Positions 5,773 through 15,169 of a stretch of 33,298 bases of DNA are shown here, in pieces. The notes beneath the pieces are model-generated. The model saw only the letters and a program-made list of their open reading frames with translations. It was not told where the DNA came from and searched no databases. How positions within the stretch are numbered: the first letter of the stretch is position 1; each line of letters begins with the position of its first letter. A program made the position numbers and the translations under genes. This DNA comes from a virus, in the IMG/VR virus record IMGVR_UViG_3300030101_003967, positions 1-33,298 of that record; one strand, 5' to 3'.

Positions 5773-6072
5773 TTAATTTTTATAATTAATATTTATTTTA
5801 TTTCCGTTCCATTCCTTACCGTTTAAATACCATTTAAAATTTCTTTGATATATATTTACATTTGGCAAGCCGTTCAACCGTTCTTTTGTTGTTGGTGTGA
5901 ACCATCCGCAATTAGTAATTATTAAAGTATTATCTTCATGTAAAATTGCTATTATATTATCATGTAATTTTAAATAATATTTTTTGTTAAGTTCTCTTAC
6001 TTTCATGTTTTGGCGTGTAAATATTCGCCTATTTAAAAAAGCATTTATACTGTCATTTGTTATTTTTCTCAT
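5773..6072 (-). CDS. DUF8033-like early protein
   Basis: This 99-aa protein fits a conserved small phage domain: an N-terminal TNDSINAFLNRRIF segment, a central LKLHDNIIAIL strand pair, then NCGWFTPTTKERLNGLP and a C-terminal YLNGKEWNG. I recall the same layout from phages of varied hosts (DUF8033), whose biochemical role is unknown. It lies mid-way in the early operon, consistent with a host-modifying role. The ATG at 6072 is preceded by AACACTAAATACAAAACA, similar to neighbouring leaders. The family assignment is from memory of the pattern. Confidence 0.75.
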   Translation of the reverse strand: MRKITNDSINAFLNRRIFTRQNMKVRELNKKYYLKLHDNIIAILHEDNTLIITNCGWFTPTTKERLNGLPNVNIYQRNFKWYLNGKEWNGNKININYKN

Positions 6073-6095: not shown

Positions 6096-6488
6096 TTATT
6101 TTAAGTTGTTTATAAAATCATCTATTTGTGTTTCTAATTTATGCCACTGATCTCTTGCTTCTTGACTTGCTAAAAGTGAAGCGAGTAATTCAGAATTAAT
6201 ATTTTCTAAACTATAACCCATTTCACAAGCTATATTTATTGACTCGTTTAATGATGCGTCATTTTTTTGCAAATATTTAATAGCATTTGAATAATATATT
6301 ATATCAATGTTGAAAGCTCCGTTATCTTCTAAAATATCTCTTAATATATATATATCAATTTTTTCTATTTCTTCTAGTTCTTCTTCTGTAATATAGTCGC
6401 AAATTTCAAAATCTAAATCATTATTGTGATCTAAATATTTTAAATAATCGTATAAAGTTTTTACTTCTTTTTTTGTTGTTAATTCCAT
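6096..6488 (-). CDS. Acidic helical early protein
   Basis: This is a 130-aa acidic, all-helical protein, the largest of the early operon. The N-terminal half contains clustered Glu/Asp (ITEEELEEIEKIDIYIL); the C-terminal half is helical with SLLASQEARDQWHKLETQID. No enzyme motif is visible. Acidic proteins of this size include DNA mimics that block host DNA-binding enzymes, which is one hypothesis for an early phage gene. The start follows an A-rich leader. Function unknown. Confidence 0.75.
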   Translation of the reverse strand: MELTTKKEVKTLYDYLKYLDHNNDLDFEICDYITEEELEEIEKIDIYILRDILEDNGAFNIDIIYYSNAIKYLQKNDASLNESINIACEMGYSLENINSELLASLLASQEARDQWHKLETQIDDFINNLK

Positions 6489-7228: not shown

Positions 7229-7381
7229 TTATTTAATATTATTAATTTTGTTTTCTTCTTTTTGTTTATCTTCTAAAATATGCTTTATATTTATGCTTTG
7301 CACAACTGGAAAGCCATTTTTTAAAAGAGTGTAAATAGTTTTTTTGTTTTTTCTTTTTTGTTGTGTGATTTTTAATTTCAT
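7229..7381 (-). CDS. First gene of the early operon (50 aa, basic)
   Basis: The frame begins MKLKITQQKRKNKK and continues TIYTLLKNGFPVVQSINIKH. It is the first gene after the strong promoter at 7421-7448, so its product should appear very early. The leader AACACTTTAAAAA before the ATG is shared with the genes at 5384 and 5643. The protein is basic, without a recognised domain. Confidence 0.65.
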   Translation of the reverse strand: MKLKITQQKRKNKKTIYTLLKNGFPVVQSINIKHILEDKQKEENKINNIK

Positions 7382-7629: not shown

Positions 7630-7977
7630 TTATTGAATTTTTAAATACCAGTCAGCAGTTTCAATGCACTCATCAAGACCTTTAACAACCTTTGCAAAGT
7701 AACCTGCTTCATTTAAATATGCAACCCATTCCTTTTGTTCTTTAGTTGGATATGATTTTTTATTCGCTTTGATTTCTAAAAAACATCCTGCATATTTGTG
7801 ATTGACTTTTAGTATTTGCATGTCAGGAAATCCTTTGACATAACCTGTTTTTTTAGCTAACACAGCTTGTTTCATAGAGGTTCTTATACCTCCCAAAGAA
7901 GCACAGTATCTAACTTGAGGATAATTGTATTTAAGGTAAGTACAGAACGCTGCTTGTACTGATGCTTCAGGTTTCAT
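7630..7977 (-). CDS. VRR-NUC domain nuclease
   Basis: This 115-aa stand-alone VRR-NUC protein belongs to the PD-(D/E)xK superfamily. Key pieces are an N-terminal Glu in EASVQAAFCTYL, GFPDMQI with the metal-binding Asp, CFLEIKANKK with the ExK motif, and the conserved TKEQKEWVAYLNEAGY helix. Phage VRR-NUC proteins act on branched or structured DNA during replication and recombination and may serve as Holliday-junction resolvases. It is the last gene of the replication block, and its start overlaps the preceding HTH gene stop as TAATG. The length is typical. Confidence 0.92.
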   Translation of the reverse strand: MKPEASVQAAFCTYLKYNYPQVRYCASLGGIRTSMKQAVLAKKTGYVKGFPDMQILKVNHKYAGCFLEIKANKKSYPTKEQKEWVAYLNEAGYFAKVVKGLDECIETADWYLKIQ

Positions 7978-8249
7978 TAATGATGGTTGTAAACAGATTT
8001 ACCTACCCTGCGTACCCCCCTATACCCCCCATCACCCCCTGCATAGGTTGTCTTTTTGATAAGTTGATACATTAATGGTTGTGATACGTTGTACTTTCTA
8101 GCCAAAGAAGATATAGTTATCTTTTCTGTAGCATTATTATATTCATCTCTTATTGCTTGTGCTTCTTCCTCTGTAAACTTTCTTCTGGAGTAACCTCCAC
8201 CTCTCATGTCTTTTCTATCTTCTAATTTTATTTTTCTAATCTTTGGCAT
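7977..8249 (-). CDS. Helix-turn-helix DNA-binding protein
   Basis: This 90-aa basic protein has an HTH near residues 44-66 (ITISSLARKYNVSQPLMYQL), like resolvase/Hin-type or sigma-like HTH proteins. The flanks are Arg/Gly-rich. It probably binds DNA as a regulator or recombination helper. The downstream VRR-NUC start overlaps its stop, so the two are translationally coupled. The exact role is unknown. Confidence 0.8.
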   Translation of the reverse strand: MPKIRKIKLEDRKDMRGGGYSRRKFTEEEAQAIRDEYNNATEKITISSLARKYNVSQPLMYQLIKKTTYAGGDGGYRGVRRVGKSVYNHH

Positions 8250-9248: not shown

Positions 9249-9611
9249 TTATCTTAACAATTTAGGTTCTGGTCTAAAATGTGGTACTGTTTTAGGATCA
9301 GCACCTGCATCTACTTTTGCTCTAGCATCCCATATCAAATCTTTATGACTTCTTAACCACTTCATATATGTTGGTACATTAAGATGTATAAAATCTTTGT
9401 CATGTGGACTTCTAACACCTAATCTAAAAGCATTGACAGCATCTTGAAAGTAAAAATTTTTATATGTTTTACTCAAATCTTCTGCTAAACTTTGTGCCAT
9501 AATAACTTTTGTTTCTGCATCTACATTATGTTGACCTAACTCTATATAGGTTTTACTTAATAAATCTAAACACAAATCTTCTAATTCTTCTCTTGTTTTT
9601 GTTTTTATCAT
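9249..9611 (-). CDS. Conserved replication-block partner protein
   Basis: This 120-aa helical protein has a region (FYFQDAVNAFRLGVRSPHDK, then NVPTYMKWLRSHKD) that recurs in Bacteroidetes phages directly after DnaD/HTH replication proteins. It overlaps that gene by 4 nt (ATGA). It may help load the host helicase or form a complex with the DnaD-like protein. This role is inferred from context only. Confidence 0.75.
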   Translation of the reverse strand: MIKTKTREELEDLCLDLLSKTYIELGQHNVDAETKVIMAQSLAEDLSKTYKNFYFQDAVNAFRLGVRSPHDKDFIHLNVPTYMKWLRSHKDLIWDARAKVDAGADPKTVPHFRPEPKLLR

Positions 9612-10240
9612 TTTCTACCTTTTTTTAACAATTCTTTAGCTTCCATATGCGAACTTAAGTGCATATGTACTTTACTAATACTCTTTGTTGTGTTTCTTTT
9701 TTCCCAAGTTCTCACACATGCTTTCCAGTTTTTCATTTTGTTTTTACCTACTTTCCAATCTTTACTTTCATAAAAATCAAAGAAAGTTTCTGCATCTAAA
9801 CCATTACCTCTGTCTTTACAATACTTGGCAATTTCAACAATAGTTGGTTTTTTAAAACGCCCTTTATTATTACTATATGTAATATTATTATTAATACTTG
9901 TATTATTATCCTTAAACTTTTCTTTAATACCCTCCCTATCTTTTTCTTTAATACCCCCTTTAAGAATACTTATATACCTCCTATCAATTTCTTTAGTACC
10001 CTTTTTGTATGTGTAAGTAGTTGATATATAACCATTTACAATAAGTTCTTTGATCCACTTAGAAATAGTTACAATACTCTTACCATATAGTTTTGAAAAG
10101 TATCTGTTTGTTGCAAAGCACTCACCATTCATATTTAATAATGCAGTTATTTCTGCATACAATAGTTTTGCATGGGCAGTAAGATTTTTGTCATATCTAA
10201 CTTCTGCAGATATGATTGCATAATAGTTTGGTTGTTCCAT
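9608..10240 (-). CDS. DnaD-like/winged-helix replication protein
   Basis: This 210-aa protein has an N-terminal winged helix (residues 5-90, with LTAHAKLLYAEITALLNMNG and GKSIVTISKWIKELI) of the type found in phage replication initiators and helicase loaders. After an Asn/Lys-rich linker, the C-terminal region has FFDFYESKDWKVGKNKMKNW and ACVRTWEKR, a segment common at the end of phage DnaD-like proteins. With no phage helicase or polymerase, it probably recruits host DnaB. The start is 2 nt after the preceding stop. Confidence 0.82.
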   Translation of the reverse strand: MEQPNYYAIISAEVRYDKNLTAHAKLLYAEITALLNMNGECFATNRYFSKLYGKSIVTISKWIKELIVNGYISTTYTYKKGTKEIDRRYISILKGGIKEKDREGIKEKFKDNNTSINNNITYSNNKGRFKKPTIVEIAKYCKDRGNGLDAETFFDFYESKDWKVGKNKMKNWKACVRTWEKRNTTKSISKVHMHLSSHMEAKELLKKGRK

Positions 10241-11928: not shown

Positions 11929-12169
11929 TGTCTTTACACATTTTTTTGTATTGGTCTTGTGGGTCTGTTTTGATTTCATTTTCAAATATTTTTTTTACTA
12001 TTTCTTCAGCTTCTAGTTCTGTATAATCATTTAAATTGCTAAGTATTGTATCTTTTTCTAACTGTGATAATGATGTTCTGTCAATCATACTATCAATGAT
12101 GACCAACTGTCTATAAGTTATAGGTGTTGGCTCACCATCAATAATATCATTAATCCAATCATCTGACAT
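11903..12169 (-). CDS. Unknown acidic 88-aa protein
   Basis: This acidic helical protein (MSDDWINDIIDGEPTPITYR) has no recognised domain. Its start overlaps the stop of the putative annealing protein as TAATG and it overlaps the next gene, so the three are translated in series. It could be an accessory factor for recombination. Confidence 0.7.
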   Translation of the reverse strand: MSDDWINDIIDGEPTPITYRQLVIIDSMIDRTSLSQLEKDTILSNLNDYTELEAEEIVKKIFENEIKTDPQDQYKKMCKDNVFGNRSF

Positions 12170-12672
12170 TAGTCAACAATCTCATCTTGACCAAACACAT
12201 TCCCTTGCTCATAGAATCCTGCAATTTTTAAGACTACTCTACTCATTGCTCTTTTCTCTGCCATAGCTACAGGAAACTTTTTACCACCTCCCATAAGATT
12301 TGCTTCAGATGCTTCACCAAAACTCATCATGTTTCTTACTTCAGTTTTGTTGATCTTCATTGTAGCAACTGCTTTTAATACTACATGAGTTTTATCTAAG
12401 TCCATTACTACAGGTTCATAAGCAACTGTAATACCTTTTTTGCTTACAATCTTATCAATACCAGACCTTGTGATGATTACAAATCCTCTTTTGTCTTTGT
12501 AAACATCTTCTTTAACAAGACCATTTTCTTTAAATAATCTTCTTAGTGCATCTTCTCTTGTTTCTGTAACTGTTTCTGTTGTTTCTGTTTTGTTTGTTTT
12601 TCTGCTCATTTTGTTATTGTTTAATTGATTAATACTCTGTTGTTCTTCATAAAGTTGTTTCATTTCTCCCAT
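12169..12672 (-). CDS. Putative ssDNA-annealing or recombination protein
   Basis: In this 167-aa protein the first 40 residues are polar, followed by an alpha/beta region (GFVIITRSGIDKIVSKKG) and a motif MSFGEASEANLMGG with FPVAMAEKRAMSRVVLKIAG. A closing AEKRAxxRxVLKxxG segment is common in phage Rad52/Erf-like proteins, so annealing of single strands is the leading guess. It is the first long gene behind the promoter at 12794-12823. A second possible start is Met22, also preceded by an A-rich leader. Other phage DNA-repair families cannot be excluded. Confidence 0.6.
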   Translation of the reverse strand: MGEMKQLYEEQQSINQLNNNKMSRKTNKTETTETVTETREDALRRLFKENGLVKEDVYKDKRGFVIITRSGIDKIVSKKGITVAYEPVVMDLDKTHVVLKAVATMKINKTEVRNMMSFGEASEANLMGGGKKFPVAMAEKRAMSRVVLKIAGFYEQGNVFGQDEIVD

Positions 12673-12893: not shown

Positions 12894-13988
12894 TTAGAAA
12901 TAATGTACTAAACGAGCCACTTGACCACTTGTTTTTTCGTGTATAAAACCTTCAACAGCTTTCGGTACACCAGTAAAACCTTTTCTACTGTGCCAACTGT
13001 CAGTACCACTAGGTGATCTCATATATTCTACTGTAACACCTATAAAATCTTTTGCATCTCTCCATTTATGTTTTACTTTATGATGTAAATGATGTAAATA
13101 CCAGTATCTATATTTGGTATTACTCCACATCTCTGGTCTTTCTTGTGCCATAAGTAGAGGTAAATTATCCATTTTTGCACCATCTCCATGTTCTATACCA
13201 ATAAGATTTGTACCATACTCATAATATTTTCTATAAGCTACACTAATGTCAAATGTAACCTCACCATCTTTTCTAAACCAACTTTTGAGTGCATGTGCTA
13301 AATGAAAGCCACTTTGATAATCGTGATTACTCATACTATGTACTACATCTACAGGTGCAACCTCTCTTAAAATCTCTACACACTTTACATATAATCCTAA
13401 AGCAAACTCAAAGTGCATCCACCATTTACCATCAACATCTTGATTAGTACCCTTTGTAGTTGTATTATAAACATTATCGACATGCAAAACATCGTTTCCT
13501 ACGCAAAATAATATTCTTTCTATACCAAACCCTTCTGACTTGCTTAAAAGTCCTTCTAAACCTTCTATAACACGCATACAAGCAGTTTCAACATCATAGT
13601 TATTACCAGTTTCTACTTTGTTTGCATATTTACCTATATGTATATCTGCAGGATTTATAACTAATAAGTGACCTCCTTTATTCTTATTTCTTATTGGCTT
13701 TTTGTAGTATGGTGAATGTTTTTCTATTAGAGTACATACATTATCTAAAATATCTTTTTTATCTATAGATACATCTTCTTTTGTTACTATGCTAAATCTG
13801 TACTCACCACTAGCAGATTGCCAATGCTTTACAGATACTACATCTTTTTTATCTATACCTCTCTCATATAAGTGTGTTTCTAGTGCTGTGTTTCCATTTA
13901 TGTTAGCTGTGCTGTCAGCCCTGCTTTCTAAGATCATTTCAACCTCCTCCTCACTCAATCTTAAACGCTTTCCATATTGTTTTGTCAT
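12894..13988 (-). CDS. Calcineurin-like metallophosphoesterase
   Basis: This 364-aa protein has the metal-binding motifs of the metallophosphoesterase fold in order: ADIHIGK (D115, H117), VGNDVL (G164-N165-D166), SNHDYQ (N221-H222-D223), GIEHGDG (H267) and HHLHHK (H300, H302). Phage homologues, often in replication regions, are presumed phosphodiesterases or nucleases, but the substrate is unknown. It is alone in its transcription unit, with a complex leader upstream (13989-14162) and the replication promoter downstream. The ATG at 13988 is clear. Confidence 0.88.
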   Translation of the reverse strand: MTKQYGKRLRLSEEEVEMILESRADSTANINGNTALETHLYERGIDKKDVVSVKHWQSASGEYRFSIVTKEDVSIDKKDILDNVCTLIEKHSPYYKKPIRNKNKGGHLLVINPADIHIGKYANKVETGNNYDVETACMRVIEGLEGLLSKSEGFGIERILFCVGNDVLHVDNVYNTTTKGTNQDVDGKWWMHFEFALGLYVKCVEILREVAPVDVVHSMSNHDYQSGFHLAHALKSWFRKDGEVTFDISVAYRKYYEYGTNLIGIEHGDGAKMDNLPLLMAQERPEMWSNTKYRYWYLHHLHHKVKHKWRDAKDFIGVTVEYMRSPSGTDSWHSRKGFTGVPKAVEGFIHEKTSGQVARLVHYF

Positions 13989-14044
13989 TTTTGTAAGTTA
14001 TTGATTTGGACAAATCTATACAAAAAAGTAGCCATATATTGCAC

Positions 14045-14069
14045 AAAAAAGGGAAGTTATTAACTCCCC
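14045..14069 (-). terminator. Intrinsic terminator in leader of the phosphoesterase gene
   Basis: On the minus strand GGGGAGTT (14069-14062) pairs with AACTTCCC (14058-14051), one G-U pair, 3-nt loop, followed by six T (14050-14045). It can end the lysis operon and also lies downstream of the promoter at 14123-14154, so it may attenuate that transcript. Confidence 0.85.
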
Positions 14070-14098
14070 TTTCTTAACTAAACTAAACACTTTGAGAA

Positions 14099-14117
14099 TT
14101 TTGTGAGAACCACAAAA
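14099..14117. promoter_or_regulatory. Hairpin at the predicted transcript start
   Basis: TTTTGTG (14099-14105) and CACAAAA (14111-14117) form a 7-bp stem with a 5-nt loop near the expected start of the transcript from the 14123-14154 promoter. It may stabilise the 5' end or form part of a leader RNA. Confidence 0.45.
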
Positions 14118-14122
14118 CAGAG

Positions 14123-14154
14123 CAAAGATAATTAAATATATATTAATTATCCAA
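14123..14154 (-). promoter_or_regulatory. Promoter containing a perfect operator-like inverted repeat
   Basis: TATCTTTG (14130-14123) matches TAnnTTTG and TTG (14154-14152) lies 21 nt upstream. GATAATTAA (14127-14135) and TTAATTATC (14143-14151) form perfect 9-bp arms, 7 nt apart, exactly between the two promoter elements. A dimeric repressor bound here would block RNA polymerase. Confidence 0.75.
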
Positions 14155-14162
14155 GCATAAAA

Positions 14163-14387
14163 CTATTTTTTTTCTAAAAGACTATACAATATGACAAGTG
14201 CTATTAAACCTACAACACCATTGTCACCTAATAAATTAATTACTTCCATTACATTTGCTATTACTGACATGCCTAATACAGGACTGCCAAATAAAATTTC
14301 AGCCATTACGCCAAAAGATAATAAACCTACAAATAACGCTGTCATTTTACCTATAAAACTATTTACTAAATTGAATATATTTTCCAT
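14163..14387 (-). CDS. Holin-like two-span membrane protein
   Basis: I start this 74-aa protein at 14387 (MENIFNLVNSFIGKMTALFV); an upstream ATG at 14459 would overlap the endolysin and lacks a good leader. Hydrophobic helices lie at about residues 15-33 and 54-70. It directly follows the endolysin and ends the late operon before a terminator. A holin or antiholin role is likely from position and topology. Confidence 0.65.
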   Translation of the reverse strand: MENIFNLVNSFIGKMTALFVGLLSFGVMAEILFGSPVLGMSVIANVMEVINLLGDNGVVGLIALVILYSLLEKK

Positions 14388-14421: not shown

Positions 14422-14775
14422 TTAGTAAAGCCAAATAACTGGATTTGCTTTACTTTCATCTATGTCAGCATGAATGAATGAGTCGTGCAACCCAAACCTT
14501 CTAAAGCCAACAAACCCCAAAGCATCTAATATTATTGCTCTGCTTTTACTGTCGCTGCATTTTATATCTACAGCTAACCCTTTTATATGTGATGAGGTTG
14601 GATTTTTTATAGATTCTGGATGGTTTTGACATCTATAACCACTTGATATGACAAATGGTAATTTTGCCATTTTTCTTGCTTGTTCAAGCATGTCTAATAA
14701 TTCTTTGTTTATGTTATTGTGATTACAACCACATTTACAAGCAAACTCTTTGAGTTTAAAATATTTGTAAGACAT
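14422..14775 (-). CDS. Endolysin: M15-family peptidase
   Basis: This 117-aa peptidoglycan peptidase is of the M15_3 (VanY/D-Ala-D-Ala carboxypeptidase-like) type. It starts with FKLKEFACKCGC and has SSGYRCQNH, then SHIKGLAVDI with zinc ligands H63 and D70, and FIHADID with H102 and the catalytic-side Asp104. There is no signal peptide, so release depends on a holin. It lies between the 130-aa holin-like protein and the 74-aa membrane protein. The length suits a single-domain lysin of a Gram-negative phage. Confidence 0.93.
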   Translation of the reverse strand: MSYKYFKLKEFACKCGCNHNNINKELLDMLEQARKMAKLPFVISSGYRCQNHPESIKNPTSSHIKGLAVDIKCSDSKSRAIILDALGFVGFRRFGLHDSFIHADIDESKANPVIWLY

Positions 14776-14776
14776 A

Positions 14777-15169
14777 TTATTTTTTTATTTTTTCAAATGA
14801 CCTACCTCCAAAGTAAGCACCTATTACAGTTATCAAAACAAGTTGTAGTAAATCTACCCAACTTGCCTTTACTTCAAAATCTATAACTCCTGCATCTATA
14901 AATATAAGTAAAACTGTACTAAAAACTAAAAATATTAGTACAAGTGGTCTTATATTTTTGCTCAACCAACTATCACTATTCATGTCTTGAGTCCATCTTG
15001 TAGTAACTTCTTTTTGCATTTCCGCTTCAAAGCTACTTACCATATGCTCAATTTTTCTTTTTGCTTCTAGTCTTTCTTCTTCTGTAGTGGTCAAATTATC
15101 AACAACATCTCCAACACCTTTAATTAGTTCGGTTGCACCACTACTAAATATTTTTGACAATATACTCAT
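14777..15169 (-). CDS. Holin of the GTA_holin_3TM type
   Basis: This 130-aa protein begins MSILSKIFSSGATELIKGVG, then a charged helix (TTEEERLEAKRKIEHMV) and two clear hydrophobic helices (about residues 71-92 and 103-121). This resembles the 3TM holins known from gene transfer agents and many phages. It would perforate the inner membrane to release the M15 endolysin, whose gene begins 1 nt downstream. Confidence 0.85.
   Translation of the reverse strand: MSILSKIFSSGATELIKGVGDVVDNLTTTEEERLEAKRKIEHMVSSFEAEMQKEVTTRWTQDMNSDSWLSKNIRPLVLIFLVFSTVLLIFIDAGVIDFEVKASWVDLLQLVLITVIGAYFGGRSFEKIKK

Follow-up and report, generated by a model that had tools for sequence, protein, structure and literature searches.

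The DNA analysed here (the window) was a single virus record of IMG/VR, 33,298 bases long and with a genome AT content of 70%, in which essentially all genes were located on the minus strand. A gap of 174 nt (13989-14162) separates its lysis genes from its exonuclease gene, and the question raised by this gap is which RNA is made from it and what that RNA does. A preliminary description of the sequence had proposed a repressed promoter making a small RNA or, alternatively, an attenuated leader of the downstream gene.

Gene order and promoters

The structural genes were followed by the lysis genes (holin and endolysin matches), the gap, the exonuclease gene, and a replication and recombination block. 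The final gene of the upstream lysis/late block (14163..14378, minus strand) encoded a small hydrophobic protein without a family match, and the endolysin and holin were found beyond it, at 14422-15169. The gene on the other side of the gap (12894..13988, minus strand) encoded an exonuclease/phosphoesterase (phrog_704, E 2.8e-69). Two other proteins of the window are possible replication or transcription regulators; one was made up for the most part of the C-terminal DNA-binding domain of DnaA (PF08299; 11019-11468), and the other was a 90-aa protein (7977-8249) with a sub-threshold helix-turn-helix (HTH) match. The minus strand of the gap contained TTG-N21-TATCTTTG, followed by a hairpin, a U-rich stretch, a 14-bp stem with terminal U's, and the weak box TAGATTTG.

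The promoter P1 (14123..14154, minus strand) was composed of TTG at 14154-14152, 21 nt, and TATCTTTG at 14130-14123, and the promoter with a 21-nt spacer that had been described at first was therefore present. RNA mapping in F. johnsoniae has given a -7 consensus of TAHHTTTG with the RNA start 4–5 nt downstream, and AT-rich motifs near -18 and -28 with no clear -33 element (PMC6847099). The box TATCTTTG fits this -7 element of the Bacteroidetes primary sigma factor, whose -33 region is poorly conserved, and P1 showed no material difference from such promoters (PMC6847099). By the 4–5 nt rule of F. johnsoniae (PMC6847099), the predicted RNA start is 14118 or 14117, the first base or bases of the hairpin. 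The letters of the -7 box were nearly invariant among 59 distinct relatives of P1. P1 looks like an ordinary host promoter, of the standard Bacteroidetes kind and predicted to be strong. The promoter scan, which was scored against the E. coli consensus, was uninformative for the promoters of the window.

A second promoter-like box, P2 (TAGATTTG, 14011..14018, minus strand), was found past the terminator and 5' of the exonuclease gene. It had been described as a weaker -7 match, and it is weak because it carries a G where the F. johnsoniae consensus TAHHTTTG almost never does (PMC6847099). The same position was occupied by TATATTTG in the relatives L006 and L065. A small inverted repeat, GATTTG-TC-CAAATC (14003-14016), overlaps P2 and was variable in the close relatives L004, L005, and L007.

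The palindrome at P1

A perfect inverted repeat of 9 bp, GATAATTAA-N7-TTAATTATC, was found at 14127..14151. The preliminary description had placed it between the two promoter elements; the repeat is perfect as described, but it does not lie wholly between the elements, as the -7 box begins with TATC and these four bases belong to the right arm. Perfect repeats of at least 9 bp with a loop of 3–12 occurred at chance level in the window (3, vs 3.65 in dinucleotide shuffles), and 53 of 2000 shuffles of the 174-nt gap held such a repeat. The left arm was conserved at 7/7 in 16 of the 59 distinct P1 relatives, as against 0.5% of shuffles; these included L065 and L007, in which the arm is non-coding. 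It fell to 4/7 or fewer, the random level, in about 21 of the 59 relatives, nearly all of which retained the -7 box, the hairpin, and the terminator. The spacer of the palindrome in this comparison was 11 nt in the group of the window and 9 nt elsewhere. In the largest (main) clade, part of the left arm was coding, as the end of a reading frame (DNCKK-stop). In promoters of the F. johnsoniae type, AT-rich DNA is usual at the position of this arm (about -29). Conservation of arm and spacing, as looked for in a repressor operator, was not found among the 59 relatives, and the 82-, 90-, and 110-aa phage proteins gave only sub-threshold HTH matches. The palindrome is probably incidental and belongs to an AT-rich promoter region; an essential operator is the less likely reading. 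It may act as an operator in the clade of the window itself; the palindrome is not what the family conserves.

Structure and conservation of the RNA

The RNA predicted from P1 (14045..14118, minus strand) is about 74 nt long and was studied by folding, a covariance model, and covariation in relatives. At its predicted 5' end, folding gave the hairpin H1, GUUUUGUG-GUUCU-CACAAAAU (14098..14118, minus strand), followed by a U-rich single-stranded linker, UCUCAAAGUGUUUAGUUUAGUU (14076..14097, minus strand), which is a candidate seed antisense to early-gene leaders. The linker was followed by an intrinsic terminator, AAGAAAGGGGAGUU-AAU-AACUUCCCUUUUUU (14045..14075, minus strand), with a 14-bp stem ending in U's, which is also the 3' end of the lysis operon. 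The fold of the hairpin and terminator region had a z-score of -4.0. A simple terminator scan gave no flag at 14045-14075, probably because the U's of the terminator pair with A's of the stem; folding showed the stable stem with its U tract that marks an intrinsic terminator. The hairpin at the start and the terminator within about 70 nt, ahead of the phosphoesterase gene, were thus both present as originally described, and both were conserved.

The letters of H1 were found to vary by clade (GGUAGG..CCUAUC, GAUGAG..CUCAUC, UGUAGG..CCUACA, and UUUUGUG..CACAAAA), and the hairpin was retained. In 28 distinct RNAs of the main clade, 95.3% of cells were paired, and double-sided changes were found at 6 pairs compared with 1.9 in shuffles; none of 500 shuffles reached these values on all five measures, and the pairing collapsed when the partner strand was slid. 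For the terminator, 99.7% of cells were paired across 28 relatives. A covariance model trained on the 28 main-clade RNAs, none of which came from the clade of the window, found the RNA of the window at 14121-14045 (29.6 bits, E 3e-4) as well as those of L007, L022, L006, and L065. It found no other good copy within the window, and Rfam gave no match there.

A search with the exonuclease yielded 80 viral loci and a scan for the linker-terminator motif yielded 110 viral stretches. The RNA was found 80–110 nt upstream of the exonuclease start in 110 of 116 loci, and in 2 more the contig end cuts it off. In the other 4 loci (L168, L178, L195, and L220), an unrelated gene was found about 100 nt after the RNA motif, which reads as a DEDD-type 3'-5' exonuclease as judged by eye. 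This replacement gene has an HTH-like N-terminus, and the promoter, the RNA, and the terminator were retained beside it. In L006, the exonuclease was 93% identical to that of the window, the upstream lysis gene and the promoter differed (TATATTTG, without the palindrome), and the RNA layout was alike; this comparison suggests recombination at the lysis/exonuclease junction. A scan of bacterial genome contigs gave a single relative, L085, which lacked the RNA. In 198 bacterial genomes belonging to the class of the L085 genome, together with the metagenome-assembled genome holding L085, homologs of the RNA were limited to weak look-alikes of an antisense start and terminator, in 1 of the 198 genomes and in the assembled genome.

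At this locus, a structured RNA was conserved together with a promoter and a terminator of its own, as looked for in a trans-acting base-pairing small RNA. The suggestion of a small RNA in the preliminary description was well supported by the conserved promoter, by the covarying hairpin and terminator, by the occurrence in more than 100 contigs, and by the retention of the RNA when the downstream gene is replaced. P1 most likely makes a regulatory RNA of about 74 nt that is common to more than 100 uncultured marine phage contigs.

Complementarity of the linker to early-gene starts in relatives

Reverse complementation of the main-clade linker, UUUUCAUUGUUUAUAGUUUUC, gave GAAAACUAUAAACAAUGAAAA, a sequence similar to the start of the replication initiator gene of those phages (L071, AAAACUAUAACACAAUGAAAG; L024, AAAACUAAAAACAAUGAAAC). 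The linkers were compared with all start regions (-25 to +15) by RNAduplex energies, which ignore accessibility, with dinucleotide-shuffled linkers as the control; the starts were those of ORF calls except in hemulen, and phages of one clade are not independent in these tests. In several relatives, 40–60% of the early genes paired strongly, compared with about 5% with shuffled linkers. In L211, 10 of 20 early starts were at -13 or below (expected 1.2; 0/300 shuffled linkers), with 9/20 in L213, 8/19 in L227, and 6/10 in L230 (each 0/300), whereas the late genes of these four phages gave 0–1 strong pairs. When the leaders were shuffled instead of the linkers, L211, L225, L204, and L171 each gave 0/150 and L227 gave 2/150. 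The CAU of the main-clade linker in register with AUG was the best of 51 offsets. The strongest recurrent targets of the main clade were the 130-aa gene, the replication initiator, and the 120-aa, 99-aa, and Erf-like genes; for the replication initiator, 79% of 42 were at -13 or below, with a main-clade median of -15.3.

When linkers were set against own and foreign starts, the main clade and hemulen were strongest on the diagonal. Linkers also showed a smaller generic fit to foreign flavophage starts (Z about -1 to -2; the outgroup start sets were those of Elizabethkingia phage TCUEAP1 and Cellulophaga phi38:1), and the weak covariance-model matches in host genomes were antisense to gene starts. 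Part of the linker-start signal is generic.

In phages of the L071/L175 type (L285:200-262, L288), the replication initiator was found to have its own terminator-like hairpin followed by AAAAACTATAACACAATG, and the antisense of AAAAACTATAACACAATG resembles the linker and terminator of the RNA. An inverted copy of such a replication-initiator leader may have given rise to the RNA.

Complementarity in the window and its clade

The linker of the window, AGUGUUUAGUUUAGUUAAG, differs from the main-clade linker and contains no CAU; it would cover the A-rich leader AACUAAACUAAACA and not AUG. The linker of the sister phage L007 is nearly identical to it, and in L007 10 of the 25 early starts were at -12 or below (expected 0.77; 0/400, and 0/200 with leader shuffles), as against 1 of 23 late starts, with A contents of 0.54 and 0.53 in early and late leaders, respectively. 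The late genes of L007 leaned towards pairing on the mean (13/400). In the window, the mean against shuffled linkers gave 19/300 (12/400 with a slightly different start set) and the count test gave 4 vs 0.53 expected (1/400); the test against shuffled leaders was not significant (34/150), and the best score of the linker was not on its own genes in the own-vs-foreign test. L022 was positive (5/400) and the close relative L276 was weak (50/400), and the test of L006 was empty, with only 3 usable early starts. The targeting claim is therefore supported by the family more than by the window.

The predicted targets in the window were all located on the minus strand. The gene after the exonuclease (12169..12672) paired with the linker at its start at -14.8 kcal/mol; it was called Erf-like by resemblance, with no Pfam or PHROG match, and its orthologs were recurrent targets in the main clade. 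The 99-aa gene (5773..6072) gave -13.7 (orthologs, median -13.2), followed by a 50-aa ORF (7229..7381) with -12.5 and the 130-aa gene (6096..6488) with -12.2 and a 10-nt perfect match, AACTAAACAC; orthologs of the latter were the strongest main-clade targets (median -17.3, n=5). The replication initiator (9608..10240, minus strand; phrog_19658) was not a predicted target in the window (-5.9). The 99-aa protein matched Kyanoviridae Gp96 (PF23790, E 5.7e-14), a family named from cyanophages.

A possible second case in Lillamyvirus

Lillamyvirus (Flavobacterium phages) shares the order endolysin-terminator-exonuclease with the window. Its endolysin-exonuclease interval, joined across the record ends, contained a terminator as well as a TATATTTG box for the exonuclease, and no P1 was found on the exonuclease strand of this interval. 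The other strand contained a TATTATATTTG box directed back through the endolysin terminator, with a U-rich stretch between the box and that terminator (L082:1-95 with L083:4000-4040), and this opposite-strand layout was found in seven related contigs (L088, L093, L094, L102, L103, L105, and L106). In hemulen, pairing of the U-rich stretch with the early starts of this phage (2/300 and 1/300) did not extend to its late starts (154/300). This element is a candidate RNA of about 75 nt, of similar design and at the equivalent place; it differs from the RNA of the window in being on the other strand, in having no 5' hairpin, and in being missed by the covariance model.

Discussion

We propose, at slightly better than even confidence, that P1 makes a trans-acting phage small RNA whose linker pairs with early-gene leaders and represses early genes. 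P1 would transcribe a phage RNA of about 74 nt ending at the intrinsic terminator, in which the 5' hairpin and the terminator would flank the U-rich single-stranded linker. Pairing of the linker in trans would involve early mRNAs (those of recombination, replication, and small early genes) at their A-rich leaders and start codons, and it would most likely block their translation and help the early-to-late switch. That the RNA may switch off early genes follows from its unpaired middle, which is complementary to early-gene start regions. Repression is favoured because the duplex would cover the start codon or the A-rich leader, where structure tends to reduce translation in F. johnsoniae (PMC6847099). 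The RNA is located at the 3' end of the lysis operon and shares its terminator, so that late transcripts reaching this point would contain the linker too. The promoter, the structured RNA, its conservation, and the complementarity to early starts in relatives are supported by the sequences; the complementarity in the window itself is weakly supported. From these, we infer that the RNA is transcribed, that it pairs with its targets in the cell, that it represses and does not activate them, and at what time it acts.

The RNA could be real and act in another way, by binding a host mRNA or protein or as a stable by-product of the late-operon terminator, in which case its likeness to gene starts would reflect the A-rich leader style of Bacteroidetes. 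We regard this as unlikely, though to be taken seriously, as U-rich linkers fit many A-rich starts, foreign ones included, generic antisense-start and terminator matches were found in host genomes, and the signal of the window itself was weak. Such a general fit does not explain why dinucleotide-preserving shuffles of linker or leader abolished the signal in several phages, or why strong pairs in L007 were confined almost entirely to early starts when early and late leaders are equal in A. An attenuated leader, with P1 driving the early genes and the terminator controlling read-through, is improbable. Promoter, terminator, and gene do stand in the correct order within 165 nt, and the 5' arm of the terminator paired weakly upstream in truncated folds; a mutually exclusive antiterminator fold was not found, however, and the alternatives were weak and inconsistent. 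Moreover, most relatives carry a second promoter-like box 3' of the terminator, Lillamyvirus retains the terminator and this box without P1 or a leader on that strand, and the RNA is retained when the exonuclease gene is replaced. The leader proposed in the preliminary description is disfavoured on these grounds.

The operator of the same description, at which a phage or host HTH repressor would bind GATAATTAA-N7-TTAATTATC and shut P1, fared worse, and we hold it to be very improbable. The perfect repeat overlapping the -7 box and the left arm intact in 16 of 59 relatives speak for it. Set against this are the chance level of such repeats in the window, the change of spacer from 11 to 9 nt, an arm that is partly coding in the main clade, the AT-richness of F. 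johnsoniae promoters at -18/-28 in any case (PMC6847099), and the absence of any HTH match above threshold in the 82-, 90-, and 110-aa proteins; the relatives without the palindrome retained the promoter, the RNA, and the gene, an outcome named beforehand as contrary to a repressed promoter. The linker might also mirror the start region of a small gene on the opposite strand, since in many main-clade phages the complementary strand shows a good start context, AAAACTATAAACAATGAAAACAAAG. This is highly improbable, as the frame has 4 codons in many phages (ATGAAACAAAGATAG) and is shifted in others, the ATG is absent in L233, L238, L251, the window, and L007, and the conserved promoter and the terminator U's lie on the RNA strand.

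The trans-acting RNA proposed here would work most like P22 sar RNA and lambda OOP RNA, as a phage small RNA with a predicted set of many target genes. The sar RNA is a phage transcript of only 68/69 nt; by pairing with a phage mRNA, it prevents the ant protein from being made. OOP RNA is a 77-nt phage RNA that has its own promoter, adjoins early genes, and is negative for an early gene (PMC12197685). Unlike sar, which has one target, the present RNA has many predicted early targets through a shared leader and belongs to another host phylum; unlike OOP, a cis-antisense RNA of cII, it is encoded away from its predicted targets, and the pairing is short and imperfect. The 6S RNA of lambda pR'-tR' starts from a promoter shortly before a terminator, at a module boundary by the lysis genes, and serves Q antitermination. 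The present locus is alike in this promoter-terminator boundary layout, but it showed neither an antiterminator fold nor a Q-like site.

Small RNAs of flavophages were not found described in the open-access literature, and small RNAs of Bacteroidetes phages appear little studied. A wider proposal, which we put forward tentatively and consider somewhat doubtful, is that two groups of Flavobacteriia phages each keep an RNA at the lysis/early junction, on opposite strands, as a general anti-early translational regulator. If true, the seed would be the antisense of a leader common to many early genes, so that one RNA could turn down the whole early regulon, and an anti-early RNA of this kind would suit hosts in which A-rich leaders take the place of Shine-Dalgarno sites. 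A culturable system for this idea is available in the Lillamyvirus isolates and the Flavobacterium strains that they infect. If the main proposal of a trans-acting RNA is right, uncultured marine flavophages would carry a widespread RNA that gives simple control of many early genes together in bacteria without Shine-Dalgarno signals.
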